From: Peptococcaceae bacterium
GTDB taxonomy: Bacteria; Bacillota; Desulfotomaculia; Desulfotomaculales; JACDOK01
DNA: 64,000 nt
Reading direction: 5' to 3'
Assembly (NCBI GenBank): GCA_017656185.1
Contig: JACDOK010000007.1
Span: forward strand, 1-64,000
The notes under the pieces were generated by a model, which saw nothing but the letters and a program-made list of their open reading frames with translations, was not told the DNA's origin and did not search any database. The translations under genes were made by a program, and so were the position numbers. Positions within the stretch are counted from its first letter, which is position 1. Each line of letters starts with the position of its first letter. Below are positions 34,568 through 44,777 of the stretch, in pieces.

Positions 34568-35575
34568 TCACCTTGCCGCGAAGCCCAGCCTTTTCTTTAG
34601 AAACGGGTAAACCGCGGCTAAGAACAGCACATTAACCGCCAAGTTAATCCCAGCCAGTACACCGACCTTACCCCAGGGCGCCGCCTCGACAAGAACGGCC
34701 CGGTAGGCCTCGAAGGTCCAGAAAGTGGGCACCGGGTACAGCAAAAACTTAAACCCTTCCGGAATGATGTAAGTCAGGACGGGCACGAGCACAAACAGCA
34801 GCGCACCGATCTTGAAATTCGCAATACCGGCAGTCTGGTTGGCACTGACGCTGCCGACAATAAAGCCGAAGATCACGGCCAGCAGGGTTCCGGACAGGGT
34901 AACGACCAAAACTTGCAGCACGTTAAAGTTATCGACCCCCAGCAGCCAGAGGCACCCAAAAACAAGAACGACGGAGGTAAGCAGAGTTATTCCACTTCTC
35001 CCGGCAATAAATTCCGCCCGGCTCAGCGGGGTTACTTCTAACGCCTGCAGGCTGCCCGTTTCCTTTTCCTCAATAAGGTTGAATGCCATCAAGACACCAC
35101 CGATCAGCATACACCCGAGGGCCAGGAAGACCCCTGTCACCTGCGCTGCCGGCATATAGTCCGGGTTTATCTCTTCCACCGCATAATCCTGCCGTTCTCC
35201 CGCCGCGATCCGTTCCAGCACTATCCCCGGCAGTTCCCCGGCATCGCGCGACTCGTTGCCTTCCAAGATAAGAGCATACCGGTTCTCTCCGGTTACCAAC
35301 ACGCCCACAGCGTCATCGAAAGCCAGCACCCGCTCTTCCATAGCAGCACGGTCGGGAACGATCTCGACATCAACGTACTTTTCCAATTGGGCTACGAAAC
35401 CCGGCTGCGCGTCATCCTTCGTCAGCACCAAATTCAAAGACATACCTGTTGCGGTAGGCAGAAACAGGCGCAGCAAAAACGCCATTACCAGCGGGGCTAC
35501 CAGAGCATAAACCAGGATGTTATCCCTGATGCTGTTGGCAAAATCCTTGTGGATGAGATTAATCACTCTGTGCAT
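34568..35575 (-). CDS. ABC-2 type transporter permease (second)
   Basis: A 335-aa permease with an N-terminal helix, a large extracytoplasmic domain (about residues 35-160) and five C-terminal helices, the YhgE/ABC-2 arrangement. It forms the membrane part of an exporter with the preceding permease and ATPase genes, 20 bp apart. The pair of different permeases suggests a heterodimer. The substrate is unknown; antibiotic, lipid or toxic compound export is usual for TetR-linked systems. Confidence 0.87.
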   Translation of the reverse strand: MHRVINLIHKDFANSIRDNILVYALVAPLVMAFLLRLFLPTATGMSLNLVLTKDDAQPGFVAQLEKYVDVEIVPDRAAMEERVLAFDDAVGVLVTGENRYALILEGNESRDAGELPGIVLERIAAGERQDYAVEEINPDYMPAAQVTGVFLALGCMLIGGVLMAFNLIEEKETGSLQALEVTPLSRAEFIAGRSGITLLTSVVLVFGCLWLLGVDNFNVLQVLVVTLSGTLLAVIFGFIVGSVSANQTAGIANFKIGALLFVLVPVLTYIIPEGFKFLLYPVPTFWTFEAYRAVLVEAAPWGKVGVLAGINLAVNVLFLAAVYPFLKKRLGFAAR

Positions 35576-35595
35576 TACACAAACTCTCCTTTCAG

Positions 35596-36645
35596 TCAGA
35601 CAAAGGCCAGCCGGCGGCGGAAGGCCGCCACGGCGACCGGCAAAATCACTACGTTGTAGACCAGCAGCTGCCAGATGGCCTGACGTACAATTTCAGGACT
35701 TCCCGCTGAGAATAAAATTTCCCGCAGCGCAAAAATAAGCGGGTAGGTGGGAAGCCATGTCATCCAGCCCGGGGAAAAACTGGGCCAAAAGTAGCTTATC
35801 GCAGGCAGGCTGAGCAGTGCGATGCCTCCCAGCATTGGAAAAATAAACTCAGTCAAATTGTTAAAGTAATTGGCCAAAAGCGCTCCCAGTAACGAGGCAA
35901 AAGCACTACCCAGAAGAGTTACAACTACCAATTGAAGGAAGTTTATACCCGTACCGATAGTTGATAAAATAAGTGCCAAAGTAAACCCAACAGCCAAAGC
36001 GGCCAGGACTATTGTTTTGGCCAGCAGGTACTCCCAAATACCCCCCGGTGTAACAGCATAAGCCTGTAAAGTCCGGTCTTCCTTTTCCATAAAAATCATG
36101 GCCGCGATAAAGAAAAGGCCCGTCAAAGCCGCCTCGGAAAGCAGCAGCACCGGCAAAAGGGCCAGGTTAAAAGGGGGCTTTGGGGCGGAAACGCTCTCCC
36201 GGAGGGTTATCGTGGTGATCTCGGCTGCCCGTTCCCATCCGAAAAGATCAATAGCCATATCATCCACCGCGGCAGCCAACAGGTTGCGGGCGCGCTGACT
36301 TTCAAAACCCTGAAAAACAAAAATTATCTGGAGGTGTTCAGGACCCGGTTCAATTACCAAACCGATGCTGTTCCGGTCACCAAGCATACGCTTTCTTAAT
36401 TCATCGCGGGATGATACAGGGTGAACTCGCCCTTCTTGGTCCTCCTGCAAAGCCTTTCGTAGTAAAATTTTCTGCGGAGTGGTATCTAGGATGTACGTAC
36501 GGTGATTTAAAGATATATCATCAGGTACGATGAAGTTGGTAAAAACAATATAGAAGGCAGCCAGGATGACTACCACTGTGACGTAGTGGTTCCGGACTGC
36601 CACCCGCCCGTCCTTAACTATCAAATGACCCAACCGGCGCAGCAT
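35596..36645 (-). CDS. ABC-2 type transporter permease (first)
   Basis: A 349-aa permease of the same design as its downstream neighbour: helix 1, an extracytoplasmic domain of about 130 residues, and a five-helix C-terminal block including MEKEDRTLQAYAVTP, the typical cytoplasmic loop. Its start directly overlaps the end of the ATPase gene at 36645. Confidence 0.87.
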   Translation of the reverse strand: MLRRLGHLIVKDGRVAVRNHYVTVVVILAAFYIVFTNFIVPDDISLNHRTYILDTTPQKILLRKALQEDQEGRVHPVSSRDELRKRMLGDRNSIGLVIEPGPEHLQIIFVFQGFESQRARNLLAAAVDDMAIDLFGWERAAEITTITLRESVSAPKPPFNLALLPVLLLSEAALTGLFFIAAMIFMEKEDRTLQAYAVTPGGIWEYLLAKTIVLAALAVGFTLALILSTIGTGINFLQLVVVTLLGSAFASLLGALLANYFNNLTEFIFPMLGGIALLSLPAISYFWPSFSPGWMTWLPTYPLIFALREILFSAGSPEIVRQAIWQLLVYNVVILPVAVAAFRRRLAFV

Positions 36646-37499
36646 CAGCTCAGCCCCTTCCCCGTGAGCTTGATGAAAATCTCATCGAGGGTTGCTTCTT
36701 GGGAATGAAGTGTTTCCACACACCCGCTGTCCAAGAGCTCGTGAAGGCGTTTCTTTTCTTTGTCATCGGCGAGAGATAGCCTTGCGGTAACCAGTTGGCC
36801 GTCTTGCCGGTATTCTACCCGCACCATCCGTTCGCCGTACTGCAGCTTGAGATTACGGGGCGTATCCACTGCCACAATGCGCCCGCTGTTTAGGAAGGCT
36901 ACCCGGTCGCAGAGTTCTTCAGCGTCGAACATATTGTGTGTAGTAAGAAAAATAGTTGTCCCCCTGCTTTTTTCGGCCAAGATTATTTCCTTAACGTTGC
37001 GGGCGCTTTCAGGATCCAGCCCCGAGGTCGGTTCATCCAGAAACCAGATGCGGGGGTTGTTAACCAGCGACCGTGCCAGCATCAGCTTCTGCTGCATCCC
37101 CTTGGAATAATCGCCGGCCTTTTTGTTCATAGCCCCACCGAGGCCCACCAGCCGCAGCAACTCCCGCGGGTCACGGGTAGGCACGTCGTACATCCCGCGG
37201 AAAAAATTAAGGTTTTCCAGGCCGGTAAACTTGCGGTAGAAATTGGGCTGTTCAAAACACACACCGATCATATTAAAGAATTCCCTGCCCGGCCTGCGAA
37301 CATCTATCCCCTCTACCGTAACACGACCGCCTTGCAGCGGCAGAACTCCAGTTAACACTTTCTGCGTAGTGCTCTTACCGGCCCCGTTAGGACCGAGAAA
37401 CCCAAAAATCTCCGCCTTAGCAATTTCAAACGAAATGTGATCCACGGCCAGAGTATGGCCGCCGTCATAGGAATGAACCAGGTTTTGTACGGTAATCAT
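36645..37499 (-). CDS. ABC exporter ATP-binding protein
   Basis: A 284-aa ATPase with Walker A GPNGAGKST at residues 37-45, a DYSKGMQQKL signature (a divergent LSGGQ, usual in drug-type exporters), and Walker B IWFLDEPTSGLD. It is the first gene of the three-gene exporter operon. An operator for the TetR protein lies between its start and the divergently placed... same-strand tetR gene upstream, at 37517-37534. Confidence 0.9.
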   Translation of the reverse strand: MITVQNLVHSYDGGHTLAVDHISFEIAKAEIFGFLGPNGAGKSTTQKVLTGVLPLQGGRVTVEGIDVRRPGREFFNMIGVCFEQPNFYRKFTGLENLNFFRGMYDVPTRDPRELLRLVGLGGAMNKKAGDYSKGMQQKLMLARSLVNNPRIWFLDEPTSGLDPESARNVKEIILAEKSRGTTIFLTTHNMFDAEELCDRVAFLNSGRIVAVDTPRNLKLQYGERMVRVEYRQDGQLVTARLSLADDKEKKRLHELLDSGCVETLHSQEATLDEIFIKLTGKGLS

Positions 37500-37516
37500 T
37501 TTTTACCTCACTTTCA

Positions 37517-37534
37517 AGTGACTGAGCAGTCACT
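37517..37534. promoter_or_regulatory. TetR operator before the exporter operon
   Basis: AGTGACTGAGCAGTCACT is a near-perfect 18-bp palindrome 17 bp upstream of the ATPase start. The same TGAC-N6-GTCA pattern occurs twice before the tetR gene itself. Confidence 0.75.
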
Positions 37535-37549
37535 AAATAGTCAAAAAAA

Positions 37550-38194
37550 TTAACGCCGTGCTATCCCGTTTTTTATTAATGCAATAACCGTGTCCAGAAT
37601 TGGCTCTAACGCCTCCCAGTCAATTTTTGATGACTGCAGGTCTTCGGAATCAAGGTCCAGACGGTTCATTATGAAGGAACCAAGTTCTAGCGAAACGGCC
37701 GATAACAAAAAGGCAGCGGCATCCACGTCCAGGTCAGGGTCCAGTTCGCCCCGCTCAATACCCCGTATAAGCAGACCCTTATAAAAATCCACAACAGCGT
37801 TTTTCATTTGCTGTCGTTCCTCCTCCTTAAACGGGGAGTCACCGTATACCACCCGCATCCCCATCCGGTACTCCAAGGGATGGTGAATTTCAAAGCCCGC
37901 GGAGGCCATCATCAACTCCTTCAAATAAGAAAACAGGTCCAGGCTCTCCGGGTCAGGTACCTTACTGGTAATGTAACTTAATTTCGCTTGCCCGACCAGG
38001 TTAAATAGGTAAAGATAAAGATCTTTCTTTCCCCCAAAATACTGGTACATGCTGCCCTTCGCAATGCCGGCGCGCTCTACGATCTTGGAAAGGGAAGCAC
38101 TGTGGTAATCGTGGCTGGCAAACTCCTCCAGGGCCAGTCTGGTGATTAAGTCTCTTTTTTGCTTCGGTAAGTTAAAGAATGTCTGTTTAGGCAT
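37550..38194 (-). CDS. TetR-family repressor
   Basis: A 214-aa regulator. The N-terminal helix-turn-helix (IVERAGIAKGSMYQYFGGKKDLYLYLF) is typical of TetR. The C-terminal ligand domain is helical and acidic. It is the first gene on the minus strand of the exporter locus, 50 bp before the ATPase gene, with operators on both sides. It most likely represses itself and the exporter until a substrate binds. The inducer is unknown. Confidence 0.92.
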   Translation of the reverse strand: MPKQTFFNLPKQKRDLITRLALEEFASHDYHSASLSKIVERAGIAKGSMYQYFGGKKDLYLYLFNLVGQAKLSYITSKVPDPESLDLFSYLKELMMASAGFEIHHPLEYRMGMRVVYGDSPFKEEERQQMKNAVVDFYKGLLIRGIERGELDPDLDVDAAAFLLSAVSLELGSFIMNRLDLDSEDLQSSKIDWEALEPILDTVIALIKNGIARR

Positions 38195-38331: not shown

Positions 38332-38370
38332 TTGTCACATGTTATCTACTGTCGTCATAACATGTAACAA
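38332..38370 (+). promoter_or_regulatory. Long inverted repeat before the NQNG gene cluster
   Basis: TTGTCACATGTTAT and its complement (13 of 14 matching) flank an 11-bp centre just upstream of the first NQNG gene. It may be an operator for a dimeric regulator or a 5' mRNA hairpin like those before the later genes in the cluster. Confidence 0.55.
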
Positions 38371-38397
38371 TACTGTGGGAATAAGGGGGTGCCCGTT

Positions 38398-38769
38398 TTG
38401 CCCGATGGCATAGATGAAAAGCAATTAATCTCTGTCCGGTCAAATCCAGGAGACAGCATCGAGGGCATCGGCAGTCGTTTTGATGAGAGACTTAAAGCAA
38501 CCATTTTATGGATCTATAATATCAACCAAAACGGTACGTCCAATAAGTTCCGTGAAGAAGTGAGCCAGTATTTTAGTACTAAACAAAACGGCAACGCTAT
38601 GTTCCGGGACATGAGCCCGGAGATGCTGGCTGAGTTTTTAAAGCACCTGAGTGCCGCCAAGGAAGCTGCAGTGCCCGGCCTGGACCTCCGGCTCATCCTT
38701 TTAATCTACAACTGCAACCAAAACGGGACCAGTAATACCGCCGAGGTTGCCGCCGAAACGGGTTCTTGA
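38398..38769 (+). CDS. NQNG-motif protein A
   Basis: A 123-aa protein of unknown family. After a short polar N-terminus it has two hydrophobic strands ending in the same motif: ATILWIYNINQNGTSN (about residues 36-51) and LILLIYNCNQNGTSNTA (about 98-114). Between them is a helical, acidic segment with MSPEMLAEFLKHLSAAKE. It has no signal peptide. I prefer the TTG at 38398, 8 nt after AAGGGGG, over a GTG at 38389 inside that site. Protein B repeats the module, so they are paralogues. Related short proteins follow. Confidence 0.75.
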   Translation: MPDGIDEKQLISVRSNPGDSIEGIGSRFDERLKATILWIYNINQNGTSNKFREEVSQYFSTKQNGNAMFRDMSPEMLAEFLKHLSAAKEAAVPGLDLRLILLIYNCNQNGTSNTAEVAAETGS

Positions 38770-38783
38770 AAGGGGGTACCGAA

Positions 38784-39329
38784 ATGAAAGACAAGGACAT
38801 AATAAAGAGCTGCAGAAACTCGATAGAGGTACTCCGGCACATATCAATGAAAGACAAAGCTATTGTTCAGGGTATTAAAGATTCCCTGGAGGCACTCCTG
38901 GAAGAGCTTGGTACCGGTGAGAATGACCTCCCCGAGGAAAAGACGCCGCAGGAAGCAACGGAAAACGAGGAAGCACAGGCGCAGGATACCTTCCCAGCAT
39001 CGAGTCCGGGGATTGCTATTGAAAGCATGGGCAGCAACTTTAATGACGGTCTTAAAACGGTCGTTTTATGGATCTACAATATTAACCAGAACGGTACGGC
39101 CAACGTGTTTTACAAAGAAATGAACCAGTATTTCACCACCGACAAAGACGGTAACGTGATGCTCCAGGACATGAGCCCGGAAATGCTGGCCGAGTTCATG
39201 ATGAACCTAAGCACGGCCAAGGAAATCATACTACCCGACCTGGGACTGCGCCTGATCCTATTAATTTACAACTGCAACCAAAACGGGGCCGGCAACATCG
39301 CCGAGGTTGCAGCTGAAATGGAACCTTAG
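38784..39329 (+). CDS. NQNG-motif protein B
   Basis: A 181-aa paralogue of protein A with an extra N-terminal part: a helical region (residues 1-45) and an acidic low-complexity linker (EEKTPQEATENEEAQAQD). The C-terminal module is plainly homologous to protein A, with VVLWIYNINQNGTAN, MSPEMLAEFMMNLSTAKE and LILLIYNCNQNGAGN in the same order. The ATG lies 7 nt after AAGGGGG. It begins 14 bp after gene A and is surely co-transcribed. The function is unknown. The hydrophobic strand plus Asn/Gln-Gly turn, repeated twice, suggests self-assembly. Confidence 0.8.
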   Translation: MKDKDIIKSCRNSIEVLRHISMKDKAIVQGIKDSLEALLEELGTGENDLPEEKTPQEATENEEAQAQDTFPASSPGIAIESMGSNFNDGLKTVVLWIYNINQNGTANVFYKEMNQYFTTDKDGNVMLQDMSPEMLAEFMMNLSTAKEIILPDLGLRLILLIYNCNQNGAGNIAEVAAEMEP

Positions 39330-39374
39330 GTTAGGGTCACTTACAAGTGAAGATGGAGGAAGGAGGGCTTCTTA

Positions 39375-39569
39375 ATGATAGACGACGTTAAAGCTATCCT
39401 GGATAAACTCAGGAACAACCTGGACCATTTCGGGACTGAAGACATCGCTTATGCGTTCGCGATTGCTCTTGCTGCGGCTGCTGCCGGCTCCAACTGCCAG
39501 TGTATCAACTGCAACCAGAACGGAACCAGTAACACCGCCAAGTTGGGCACCAAGATTCTAAATGGATAG
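39375..39569 (+). CDS. Short NQNG-motif peptide C
   Basis: A 64-aa protein with an N-terminal amphipathic helix (MIDDVKAILDKLRNN), an Ala-rich hydrophobic stretch (residues 27-39) and a Cys-bearing motif, NCQCINCNQNGTSNTA. The last ten residues of the motif are the same as in protein A. The ATG follows GGAGGG. It ends before a terminator at 39602-39640, so A, B and C probably form one transcript. It links the larger module proteins to the two short paralogues downstream. Confidence 0.78.
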   Translation: MIDDVKAILDKLRNNLDHFGTEDIAYAFAIALAAAAAGSNCQCINCNQNGTSNTAKLGTKILNG

Positions 39570-39601
39570 CACCTATCATTAATATCGTTACTTTTCCCCG
39601 T

Positions 39602-39640
39602 GAGAAGTGAGTGCTAATCACTTCTCTTCTTTATTTTCTA
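39602..39640 (+). terminator. Terminator after peptide C
   Basis: GAGAAGTGA and TCACTTCTC form a perfect 9-bp stem with a 7-nt loop, followed by a T-rich run. Confidence 0.85.
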
Positions 39641-39651
39641 ATTAATTACCA

Positions 39652-40078
39652 GGTATTGGTAACACCTTCGCCAGCTTTTGCATAAGATATGCTAGATCTT
39701 TCCAATAGTGGAAGATCTAGAAGAAGGATGACATAGAAAGGAGGGCTTCTTAATGATAGACGACGTTAAAGCTGTCCTGAATGAACTCAAGCGTTACAGC
39801 CGCGGCGGCGACGAGCTTTTTGCTTTGGCTCTCGCTGCTGCTCTCGCTGCCGCTGCATCCAGCTGCCAGTCCAGCAATTGCAACCAAATGGGTTGCAACA
39901 ACAGATGTTTCTCTATGAAAAGGACAAAACAGCAAGACGAAATTGAACAAGAAAAATTCGAACAAGAAGTCAAGGATTAGAATAGAAAAACAACGGTCTG
40001 TCTCAAAGGCAAGGATGCTGCCCAGACCGGTTTATGGTCGAAAACCCCAGGGTCCGGAACCCTGGGGTTATGATTTGT
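39652..40078 (+). repeat. Tandem unit 1 (promoter, 5' hairpin, gene D, 3' tail)
   Basis: First copy of a duplicated transcription unit. It contains a conserved upstream block starting TATTGGTAACACCTT, a -10-like TATGCT, a 5' hairpin (CTAGATCTT ... AAGATCTAG, about 39691-39720), gene D, and a 3' tail with a GGTCTG/CAGACC stem and a GC-rich AACCCCAGGG hairpin. The second copy starts 474 bp downstream. Confidence 0.85.
39753..39980 (+). CDS. Short NQxG-motif peptide D
   Basis: A 75-aa protein with the same plan as peptide C. The N-terminal helix MIDDVKAVLNELKRY is followed by a hydrophobic Ala/Leu-rich segment (residues 26-41) and the Cys-rich motif SCQSSNCNQMGCNNRC, where Cys residues are spaced for metal binding or disulfides. 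It ends in a highly charged helical tail (KRTKQQDEIEQEKFEQEV). The ATG follows AAGGAGGG. Hydrophobic core plus charged tail and Cys cluster suggests a small structural or membrane-associated protein. No modifying enzyme is encoded nearby. Confidence 0.8.
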   Translation: MIDDVKAVLNELKRYSRGGDELFALALAAALAAAASSCQSSNCNQMGCNNRCFSMKRTKQQDEIEQEKFEQEVKD

Positions 40079-40125
40079 CTTAGCAACTGAAAAGTCTCGG
40101 CTTCACGGTATATTAATTTTTCCCA

Positions 40126-40545
40126 TGTATTGGTAACACCTTTACCAGCATTTGCATAAGGTATACTAGATCATCCTAATACTGGAAGATCTAGATAAGA
40201 GATAGAAGGAGGCTTTTTCATGGTGGATGAGGTTAAATCTGTCCTGAATGAACTCAAGCGTTACAGCCACGGCGGCGACGACCTTTTTGCCGCCGCTCTC
40301 GCTGCCGCTCTCGCTGCCGCTGCATCCAGCTGCCAGTCCAGCAATTGCAACCAAATGGGTTGTGACAACAAATGCGCGTCTTTTGAAAAGACAAAGCAGC
40401 AGGACGAAATTGAACAAGAAGAATTCGAACAAGAAGTCGAGGATTAGAATAGAAAAACAACGGTTGTCTCAAAGGCAAGGATGCTGCCTAGACCGGTTTA
40501 TGGTCGAAAACCCCGGGGCCTAGGACCCTGGGGTTTCTTACATCT
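40126..40545 (+). repeat. Tandem unit 2 (promoter, 5' hairpin, gene E, 3' tail)
   Basis: Second copy of the duplicated unit. The upstream block, the -10-like TATACT, the 5' hairpin (CTAGATC ... GATCTAG with altered internal bases) and the 3' tail are all retained. The final GC-rich hairpin keeps pairing while its sequence differs from unit 1, which argues for selection on structure. Confidence 0.85.
40220..40447 (+). CDS. Short NQxG-motif peptide E
   Basis: A 75-aa paralogue of peptide D with about four fifths of residues the same. The motif reads SCQSSNCNQMGCDNKC, and the charged tail differs mainly by conservative swaps. The ATG lies 8 nt after AGGAGG. All Cys, Asn, Gln and Gly of the motif are kept while the tail and first helix vary, indicating that the motif is the functional part. 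Confidence 0.8.
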   Translation: MVDEVKSVLNELKRYSHGGDDLFAAALAAALAAAASSCQSSNCNQMGCDNKCASFEKTKQQDEIEQEEFEQEVED

Positions 40546-40735: not shown

Positions 40736-40866
40736 ATTCTCCCATAAAGGAACACTTGGGTGCGGTTATGGCATACATTACCATAGTCCTACCTTTTATT
40801 AAAACTCTTGGACAGGATAAGCGGGACTCGGCTTACCTGCTGACTAACTGAAAAGGAGGAAAGAGG

Positions 40867-41400
40867 ATGAGAGACGACAAATCCCATAATCCTGAGAAAA
40901 CAAGTAATACCCCGGAAAAATCAAATATCGAAATCCCGCAAAAGCGGAGCCTGAAAGACCTCGTGGATAAACTGGAAGAATGGTACCTAAAGGAATGTAA
41001 TTCATCTGAGAGCGAAAAACCTGATAAGGAGCCAAAGGAAGAACCTCAAGAAGCAGCAAAAGACAATCCGGTTAAAAAGTCAAAAGGAAAATCAAAAAAG
41101 AAATCCGCAAAAAAACCGCATTGGGCAAAGAACAGTGACGAGGAAGACTTCGAACAAGGCCTCTGCCTTCCCGACAACGATATACGCTCCGAAAACCAGC
41201 CTTTTGCTGAAATGCTCGGCAAGGAAATCCTGCTTACCATGAAAGCACGTCAATTAAATATCTTAGGCCAAAATTTCCGGCCCATTTTCTGCGGTACAGT
41301 CGTAGACGTAACTAACGGTTTCCTTACGCTCGACCCGGTGATTATCAAGATCAGCAACGCACCGTTTCCCACGCGGCTCAGCTTTCCGCTGCAGTGGTAG
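40867..41400 (+). CDS. Lys/Glu-rich protein with small C-terminal beta domain (F)
   Basis: A 177-aa protein. Residues 1-95 are low-complexity and highly charged, with a Lys-rich run (KKSKGKSKKKSAKK). Residues 115-175 form a compact beta-rich domain (GKEILLTMKARQLNI, FCGTVVDVTNGFLTLDP, VIIKISNAP) of the Sm/DUF2642 kind seen in some spore coat proteins. That comparison is from pattern only. The ATG follows AGGAGGAAAG. It starts downstream of the structured RNA and overlaps the next gene. Confidence 0.7.
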   Translation: MRDDKSHNPEKTSNTPEKSNIEIPQKRSLKDLVDKLEEWYLKECNSSESEKPDKEPKEEPQEAAKDNPVKKSKGKSKKKSAKKPHWAKNSDEEDFEQGLCLPDNDIRSENQPFAEMLGKEILLTMKARQLNILGQNFRPIFCGTVVDVTNGFLTLDPVIIKISNAPFPTRLSFPLQW

Positions 41401-41618
41401 CGGGCAACCCCACGCTGCTCAATATCTTTTTTGGCCTCCACCTCCATTTAAGACTGGCAACCTTCCTGGGGTGCCCGGTGTCAGTGAGGATAGAAGGTGA
41501 AGAGGAGCTAATTCGCGGAAAGCTGGTAGAGTCGGAAGTAACGCACATCCAGGTGCAAATAGACGATAAAACAATCCGGCAAATCAGGCGCAATAAGATA
41601 TGCTTCGTGGAAATATAG
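41394..41618 (+). CDS. Small beta-barrel-like protein (G)
   Basis: A 74-aa protein starting with a GTG that overlaps the stop of gene F, so translation is coupled. The core LRLATFLGCPVSVRIEGEEELIRGKLVESEVTHIQVQIDD has the strand-turn-strand pattern of the small beta domain in F and H. It ends in a basic strand, IRQIRRNKICFVEI. It is followed by a terminator at 41633-41662. The function is unknown. Confidence 0.65.
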   Translation: MVAGNPTLLNIFFGLHLHLRLATFLGCPVSVRIEGEEELIRGKLVESEVTHIQVQIDDKTIRQIRRNKICFVEI

Positions 41619-41695: not shown

Positions 41696-42160
41696 CTAGC
41701 ACGGGTGGTCACAGGGGTGGGAAGGACAAGGAATGGGCACACAAGGAGTACATTCGGGCTGGAGCCATTCGATCTTGCAAATCCGCGCCGTCAAAACAGT
41801 GACGACGGTGCCGTCATCCCTTTTTACATCGACGAAATCGGTACCCACATTGCAAACAACACCGGTCACGGATAACTCACTCCCGGAGCATTCGAATACA
41901 ATGATGACCTGACAGCCTTTGAGGCGAAACAACTGGAAGTTGAGGTTTCCGGTCAGTCCTCCCAACTGCAGCCGGACGCGGTTGTCGCACACAAAGAAGG
42001 GGAAGCAGTGCACCGGCGGGCAGAACAAATCTTTATGGACGTGGCCGACGGGGCAATGCGGATGGCCGAAATGCCCGTGATGTACATAATGATGCTCATG
42101 ACGTATGTGATGCCCGTGCCCTTTCGAAGCATCCTCGTGACAGCGTTCCGTTTCAGTCAA
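41696..42160 (-). CDS. His/Cys-rich protein with small beta domain (H)
   Basis: A 154-aa protein of three parts. Residues 10-55 are His-rich (GHGHHIRHEHHYVHHGHFGHPH and CPPVHC). Residues 60-135 form a beta domain with GCQVIIVFE, LSVTGVVCNVGTDFVDVKRDDGTVVTVL that resembles those of F and G. The tail is Cys/Pro-rich (CTPCVPIPCPSHPCDHPC). The start is a TTG 10 nt after GGAGG. It has no signal peptide. The composition is typical of spore coat proteins that bind metal and cross-link. That assignment is inference. It converges on gene G. Confidence 0.75.
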   Translation of the reverse strand: MTETERCHEDASKGHGHHIRHEHHYVHHGHFGHPHCPVGHVHKDLFCPPVHCFPFFVCDNRVRLQLGGLTGNLNFQLFRLKGCQVIIVFECSGSELSVTGVVCNVGTDFVDVKRDDGTVVTVLTARICKIEWLQPECTPCVPIPCPSHPCDHPC

Positions 42161-43532: not shown

Positions 43533-43700
43533 GTGAACTACCCCTTCCTTCGCTAACGCTCAGGAAGGAGCTTCCTGCTTCATCGGGCACCTACTGGTGC
43601 GCTCCAACAGGCGTAACCTCCCGTGGTCCCCACGGTAGGGAAGTTATCAGGCCACTTCCAGGGCTTTCCTTAGTATATTTCGGGCTGCGTTTACATCCCG
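43533..43700 (-). ncRNA. Putative omega RNA at the tnpB 3' end
   Basis: In this family the guide RNA starts in the 3' part of tnpB and runs to the right end. The region contains the expected conserved text GATGAAGCAGGAAGCTC and stable hairpins such as CCGTGGGGACCACGG. The guide itself would be the sequence just outside the right end, at and below 43532. Boundaries are approximate. Confidence 0.55.
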
Positions 43701-44777
43701 GTCTAACACAAGCCCGCAATGAGGGCATTTATGTACCCGAACCGACAAACCTTTGGGTACTTTGTTCCCGCAACTTGAACATTCCTGCGTAGTACCGGAG
43801 GGGTTTACCTTTATTACCCTGCTACCAGCCTCCGCCGCTTTGTAGCAGAGCATGGCAAGAAACTCACTCCAGCTCGCGTCGGAAATGCTTTTAGCCAGGT
43901 GGTGATTTTGTACCATGCCTTTTACATTCAGCTCTTCTACGGCAATAAAACTGTAATTACTAACCAGTTTACGGGCTTCTTTATGCAGAAAATCCCGGCG
44001 CTGGTTCCTGACCTTCGCGTGCAGTTTGGCCAGCTTGAGCCTGGCTTTTGCCCGGTTTTTTGAGCCTTTCTGCTTGCGGGAAAGACTGCGCTGGACACGT
44101 TTGATTCTCTTTTCTGTTTTGTGTAAATACCCGGGATTCTCAATATTACCGCCATCCGAAAGTGCAGCGAATTTTTCCAGCCCAACATCCAGCCCCACAG
44201 CAGAACCGGGGTGAGTCTTTATTTGCTCAAGTTCTATTTCAACGGCAAAGACAGCGTACCACCTGCCGCTGGCATCCTTCTTGATGGTGACGGTCTTTAT
44301 TTTACCGGGTATTTCCCGGTGCCGTTTTATCTTGACCAGGCCAATCTTAGAAAGTTTGAGCTTATCGTTGTGCCAGGAAGCACCCTTACCCTCACCGAAC
44401 TGGGTGTAGGTGATAGATTTATACCGGCCTTTGCCTTTGAACCGGGGATAACCGGGCGTTTCACCGTTCTTTACCCGGCGAAAAAACCCGGCGAAGGCTT
44501 TTTCTACCCGGAATAATACTTCCTGGGCCACCTGGGAATGAACTTCTCTGTAGCAATCGTTTTCTTTTTTGGCTTCTTTAAGCCAGGCCTGCTGTTCTAC
44601 CCGCGTGATGGAGCGTTTTTCCCGTTCCCAGGCGTCTCTGCGCTGCGCCAGGGCGGTATTGTATATCCGGCGGCAGGTCTCAAGCCAGCGTAAGAGTTTG
44701 CGTTCCTGTGCTTTATTGGGGTAAATGCGAAATTTGTAGTTGCGGATGGCTCTGGGATGGGACGTATTGCTTACCAT
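43647..44777 (-). CDS. tnpB: TnpB RNA-guided nuclease (IS605 OrfB)
   Basis: A 376-aa complete TnpB. It has an N-terminal helix-turn-helix (YKFRIYPNKAQERKLLRWLETCRRIYN), the RuvC-like residues in GLDVGLEKFAALSDG (Asp), AVEELNVKGM (Glu) and DRDVNAARNIL (Asp), and a zinc finger CSSCGNKVPKGLSVRVHKCPHCG. All catalytic and zinc residues are present, so the nuclease is probably active. It guides itself with an RNA made from its own 3' end. The start codon is uncertain because several lie near 44777. Confidence 0.95.
   Translation of the reverse strand: MVSNTSHPRAIRNYKFRIYPNKAQERKLLRWLETCRRIYNTALAQRRDAWEREKRSITRVEQQAWLKEAKKENDCYREVHSQVAQEVLFRVEKAFAGFFRRVKNGETPGYPRFKGKGRYKSITYTQFGEGKGASWHNDKLKLSKIGLVKIKRHREIPGKIKTVTIKKDASGRWYAVFAVEIELEQIKTHPGSAVGLDVGLEKFAALSDGGNIENPGYLHKTEKRIKRVQRSLSRKQKGSKNRAKARLKLAKLHAKVRNQRRDFLHKEARKLVSNYSFIAVEELNVKGMVQNHHLAKSISDASWSEFLAMLCYKAAEAGSRVIKVNPSGTTQECSSCGNKVPKGLSVRVHKCPHCGLVLDRDVNAARNILRKALEVA

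Follow-up and report, generated by a model that had tools for sequence, protein, structure and literature searches.

A conserved gene cluster with a shared N-x-N-Q-x-G-x-x-N motif: a candidate spore-envelope family of Gram-positive spore formers

Within the 64,000-nucleotide stretch of Peptococcaceae DNA analysed here (the window), five consecutive genes, A to E, encode two larger and three small proteins that all carry one short motif, N-x-N-Q-x-G-x-x-N. The cluster is real and it is conserved, and the sources searched give no description of it. The reading we favour, to which we give about an even chance, is that it represents an undescribed family of the spore envelope (coat or exosporium), made under the control of sigma-K and co-assembling via a short cross-beta motif common to its subunits. 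A more specific version, in which a spore shell is built in the mother cell from a heterotypic functional amyloid, with a two-arch nucleator and one-arch partners of differing bodies held together by a curli-like tag, is put forward only tentatively. It is the combination of a shared tag with frequent sporulation-type promoters that leads us to think that these proteins probably build part of the outer shell of the spore via the tag.

The original prediction, made from the letters of the window, described five consecutive open reading frames with seven copies of the motif, and all of these were recovered in place (Table 1), together with the finer features ascribed to them, namely the doubled motif of A and B with its strands ending in IYN and the MSPEMLAEF segment, and the M(I/V)D(D/E)VK and Ala-rich segments of C to E. 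A and B, which agree at 69 of 106 aligned residues (64% identity over the core), are paralogues whose DNA differs most often at third codon positions, while the D and E units form a tandem duplication of ~450 bp that, on DNA alignment, spans the promoter-like element, the gene and the terminator. For gene A, a GTG at 38389 offers an alternative start, and judged by sequence the tabulated TTG suits the ribosome site better; for gene B, the tabulated ATG, with its AGGGGG ribosome site, is more likely to be the start than a TTG at 38766. The genes seem to be laid out as three transcription units and not as one operon: A-B-C, D and E, with a promoter-like element and a terminator to each. An Rfam search returned no match.

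Table 1. Coordinates of the genes, motif copies, promoter-like elements and hairpins (window positions, except in the last row)
Feature	Position	Strand	Remarks
Sigma-K-type promoter-like element before A	38336..38363	+	CAC-N17-CATAACAT
Gene A, large protein, two motifs	38398..38769	+	123 aa from TTG 38398; ORF, homologues, alignment
Motif 1 of A, NINQNGTSN	38518..38544	+	
Motif 2 of A, NCNQNGTSN	38710..38736	+	192 bp past motif 1
Gene B, large protein, two motifs, extra N-terminal helical region	38784..39329	+	181 aa from ATG 38784; ORF, alignment
Motif 1 of B, NINQNGTAN	39078..39104	+	
Motif 2 of B, NCNQNGAGN	39270..39296	+	192 bp past motif 1
Gene C, small protein, Ala-rich helix then motif	39375..39569	+	ORF; alignment with small proteins of other genomes
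Motif of C, NCNQNGTSN	39507..39533	+	
Terminator-like hairpin 3' of C, end of A-B-C unit	39602..39626	+	
Sigma-K-type promoter-like element before D	39661..39689	+	AAC-N17-CATAAGATA
Gene D, small protein: Ala-rich helix, motif, charged tail	39753..39980	+	ORF; alignment
Motif of D, NCNQMGCNN	39876..39902	+	
Terminator-like hairpin 3' of D	40043..40069	+	
Sigma-K-type promoter-like element before E	40135..40163	+	AAC-N17-CATAAGGTA
Gene E, tandem duplicate of D	40220..40447	+	ORF; DNA alignment of D/E units
Motif of E, NCNQMGCDN	40343..40369	+	
Hairpin 3' of E	40509..40535	+	Position equivalent to the terminator-like hairpin of D
Solo small motif genes of genome G124	L043:8015-8209 and L044:82-276		

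Given the amino-acid frequencies of the window, the motif is expected ~0.002 times in all of its coding sequence, so that seven copies in two kilobases, a number inflated by gene duplication, are not a product of chance. In the large protein the distance from motif to motif is exactly 64 residues in every one of nine copies from eight genomes, and about half of the columns that are invariant among these nine proteins fall in the two motifs, which bears out the claim that the motif is the best conserved part; other invariant residues of the alignment lie outside the motifs, in the core of the protein. In most small or rod-like partners (described below) only 4-11 residues follow the motif, rising to 25 in D and E and to 53 in one protein of a related locus (L011). 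A scan of the eight genomes that carry the large protein for the DNA pattern of N-x-N-Q-N-G placed 27 of 33 matches at the cluster locus, and the full in-frame motif was found only at that locus, the one in-frame match elsewhere being without the final Asn and lying in what reads, from its sequence, as a solute-binding protein. The strand that precedes the motif is composed of Lys and Cys in most small proteins and is not hydrophobic, the Ala-rich segments, with Kyte-Doolittle averages of 1.3-2.0 over 19 residues, are fairly hydrophobic, and each protein of the cluster has one to four Cys.

The large protein is present in eight genomes, those of the window organism, of G029, G032, G034 and G035 from the same order, and of G114, G282 and G410, which are more distant within the phylum. 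Carriers are rare, 5 among the 113 genomes of the order and 4 among 399 sampled from the phylum (the window genome is counted in both), and a scan of 84,980 genomes with exact peptide patterns, which miss variants, confirmed two relatives. Homologues with the same gene pairing exist: one to three motif-bearing genes stand beside every large gene wherever the contig continues (in G032 the large gene lies at a contig end, in G034 at about 4,023,467). What the neighbourhoods of other genomes keep is this pairing; the flanking genes are not conserved and are mostly not spore genes, with a LysM-GH18 gene adjoining the cluster and a DUF7852 gene a few genes off at one locus (L012). SpoIVA was found in seven of the eight carriers tested, the eighth genome being 84% complete. 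The bodies of the partners are either short Ala-rich proteins or, in G034 and G035, Ala-rich repeat rods of 207-227 aa, in which the motif again lies near the C terminus, and since the profile built on the small proteins fails to detect these rods, it is the motif that is common and not the bodies that bear it. The same profile located two isolated small genes in a ninth genome, G124, where no large gene was detected; these solo proteins may assemble alone or use another partner. At L012:9739-11795, two neighbouring proteins with no family match above cut-off start with IYNKKGIVNVN and IYNEKGTVNLN, a strand-turn pattern that slightly recalls the strand ending in IYN of the large protein.

That the cluster belongs to no described family, as first proposed, has stood up to the searches made. 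Whole proteins and motif fragments gave only sub-threshold noise with Pfam, NCBIfam, PHROGs and PADLOC, a sequence search of the PDB matched no chain, viral contigs yielded no match, and a literature search returned neither a paper with the strings NINQNG, NCNQNG or NVNQNG nor a spore proteome of any carrier. Similarities to Fascin (E 0.02-0.12) and, on one Ala-rich helix, to L7/L12-N (4e-5, below the family cut-off) were taken as effects of composition. Two AlphaFold models of the large protein, both of low confidence (mean pLDDT 57 and 51), are too poor to support any fold, and their Foldseek matches (Ras-like and POTRA; best E 0.15) were not credited; what the models weakly outline is an alpha/beta core in which the motifs occupy strand ends. 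Confidence in these monomer models is lowest at the motif, which they leave undefined; this might, weakly, fit a segment that becomes ordered only upon assembly.

The link with sporulation comes from the sequences upstream of the genes. In Clostridioides difficile, sigma-K promoters have AC at -35, while their CATA-type -10 is common to those of sigma-E, whose -35 is ATA (PMC3789822). When the 150 bp preceding each of 19 cluster genes of the eight genomes were scanned, AC-N17-CATAnnnT occurred before 9 of the 19, compared with 1 of 120 controls taken at the same loci; the cases are not all independent, since the genes are partly related and E duplicates D. In its stricter (A/C)AC form the element precedes 8 of 19 genes against 0.11 expected in shuffled sequences, and spacings other than N17 stay near background, with N15 as a partial exception that matches three of the same genes. 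As the spacing of 17 was first noticed in the sequences in which it was later counted, the fairest check is offered by two genes found after the pattern had been fixed: the -10 is present before both of them and the full element before one. In G410 no element of this type was detected upstream, and the upstream regions of spoIVA were uninformative as a positive control. This signature, which the original prediction did not hold, appears to match the promoters of mother-cell sigma-K, and expression of the cluster during sporulation is fairly well supported. A vegetative sigma-70 operon comprising A to E was rejected, the perfect TTGACA-17-TATAAT at 38292-38264 facing away from them, toward TetR/ABC genes. 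The sigma-K-type promoters, together with the distribution among spore formers, are also the reason why, of the settings first suggested for the structure, that of the spore gains support and that of a vegetative membrane structure does not; the self-assembly of subunits with a shared motif, the remaining part of that suggestion, is plausible by analogy.

The analogy begins with curli, whose minimal repeat core is Q-x-G-x-x-N (PMC3521004), a pattern that fits all seven motif copies of the window, including that of E (QMGCDN). The C-terminal arm of the large protein extends the likeness beyond this core, which is preceded there by alternating residues and followed by N-x-A-x-V, and its succession of Y-x-C-x-Q, a turn N-G-x-x and N-x-A-x-V reproduces most of the curlin beta-arch layout (compare PMC10192328), the first Asn (position 1) and the last Gln of that layout being absent. 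Moreover, the motif is shared by a set of partners here, as it is by CsgB and CsgA (PMC3521004, PMC10192328). However, curli proteins contain tandem repeats of ~23 residues, whereas the proteins described here have one arch per site and two at most, 64 residues apart, and are encoded in spore-forming Gram-positive hosts by genes with sporulation-type promoters. The Pfam curlin model (PF07012) matched neither whole proteins nor motif fragments, CsgG (PF03783) was found in none of the eight carriers (it is present in 4 of 14 control genomes), and hydropathy revealed no hydrophobic N-terminal segment, such as a secretion signal would have, in the large proteins, the sole hydrophobic stretch of the small ones being the Ala-rich segment further inside. 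On these four points, namely the CsgG secretion channel, the tandem repeats, the secretion signal and the match to Pfam, membership of curli was rejected.

A second point of comparison is provided by RHIM-type motifs, which are common to adjacent genes and serve as homotypic tags (PMC7889193). Like RHIM, fungal PP and BASS3 motifs, the one described here is a single short Q-x-G-x-x-N-like element in adjacent genes, often terminal; unlike them, it is doubled in one of the partners, stands under sporulation-type promoters and is accompanied by no NLR, kinase, Bell or HeLo-type domain. The Pfam RHIM model matched none of the cluster proteins. It is because of the curli core, the curlin-like C-terminal arm and the homotypic tags of the RHIM type that we propose co-assembly through arches. 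RNA polymerase with the late mother-cell sigma-K would transcribe the cluster, and the proteins would then co-assemble around the developing spore via their common cross-beta motif, each copy folding into one beta-arch (strand, turn, strand) of the curli/RHIM type; in the large protein, this would comprise a strand (I/L)-Y-N-(I/C)-N-Q, a turn N-G-x-x and a return strand N-x-(A/F). With two arches held at a fixed distance, proteins A and B would be able to bridge or nucleate stacks, while the one near-C-terminal arch of C, D, E and the Ala-rich rods of other species would act as a docking tag, leaving the small or rod-like bodies to form a layer or to project from it. Once the layer is complete, it could be cross-linked by Cys residues that lie within the motif or adjoin it. 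In our reading, the cluster would work like a minimal shared-arch assembly tag.

Cross-beta assembly is argued for by resemblance only, which gives room to a reading that we consider unlikely but worth weighing, in which these are sporulation proteins that dock in a non-polymeric manner, the motif being a small globular docking or ligand-binding element and the large protein an adaptor that recruits the small ones to the spore surface or the forespore membrane with no cross-beta stacking. The invariant residues outside the motifs and the fixed 64-residue spacing do resemble one compact domain, as does, in the weak models, the possible alpha/beta core with motifs at strand ends. However, the occurrence of the same short motif on unrelated bodies, near their C termini, suits a self-complementary tag, and such Asn/Gln/Gly patterns are typical of stacked arches (PMC10192328).

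The RHIM-like arrangement can also be read as amyloid signalling of the BASS3/RHIM type, in which the large protein would sense or amplify a signal and its small Ala-rich partners would be membrane effectors triggered by motif templating. We regard this as improbable. RHIM-related motifs are indeed common to adjacent sensor and effector genes (PMC7889193), just as the motif here recurs in adjacent large and small genes of every carrier with a continuing contig, and the hydrophobicity of the Ala-rich segments would suit a membrane effector; but no domain of a sensor or effector, whether NLR, Bell or another, occurs in the cluster proteins or the neighbours tested, PADLOC gave no match above noise, rods of ~200 aa are unsuited as effectors and the sigma-K-type promoters suggest a programmed structural role.

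A sigma-K-type promoter is compatible with any late mother-cell product, and Desulfotomaculum acetoxidans forms gas vacuoles beside its spores in sporulating mother cells (PMC3035247), so that a mother-cell structure other than a spore layer has to be considered as well; we give it only a slim chance, no cluster protein having matched a gas-vesicle family. That the small genes encode RiPP-type precursors of secreted peptides is hardly credible and was rejected, for although they are tandem small Cys-containing ORFs with one sub-threshold similarity to an NCBIfam RiPP family (E 0.16), this scores 11.6 bits against a curated cut-off of 70, no modifying enzyme is conserved beside the cluster and the large protein bears the motif too.

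If the proteins do belong to the spore envelope, their closest parallels may be CsxA of C. sporogenes and CdeC of C. difficile, which are described as self-assembling, Cys-containing proteins of the outer spore layers that are poorly conserved between lineages (PMC7333573, PMC7677010). The present proteins differ from both in their defined shared Asn/Gln motif, in having one to four Cys each and in matching no family in the libraries searched. Moorella has a visible exosporium, although none of CdeC, CdeM, BclA and the Bacillus morphogens was found there (PMC8745062). Little has been charted of the spore surface in Desulfotomaculum-like and related thermophilic Clostridia, and the cluster supplies concrete candidates in related spore formers. 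Single arches of the curli/RHIM kind may be interchangeable assembly tags inside Gram-positive mother cells, where they would tie functional amyloids to spore morphogenesis; a heterotypic amyloid shell, if confirmed, would stand as an intracellular counterpart of curli, independent of it, and would mean that spores are assembled with a tag system of the amyloid type.

The surroundings of the cluster hold several further features. Just downstream lie three small genes with no Pfam match (40867-41400 and 41394-41618 on the plus strand, 41696-42160 on the minus strand), of which the first has, at 40772, the sigma-K-like element CATACATTA, while the last encodes a protein with a His-rich start and a Cys-rich end; all three may be further spore proteins. 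Upstream, a TetR regulator, an ABC ATPase and two permeases (34568-38194) adjoin the motif genes, as a similar set does in G124 (L043:8328-11266), where the ATPase is 45% and TetR 28% identical, a co-occurrence that could be due to chance. The sigma-70 promoter mentioned above, on the minus strand ahead of these divergent genes, sits within repeated GTGACT/AGTCA-like sequences that may be a TetR operator. Further downstream, an ORF at 43647-44777 on the minus strand resembles, by eye, a TnpB of the IS200/IS605 type, with a CSSCG...CPHCG zinc ribbon.
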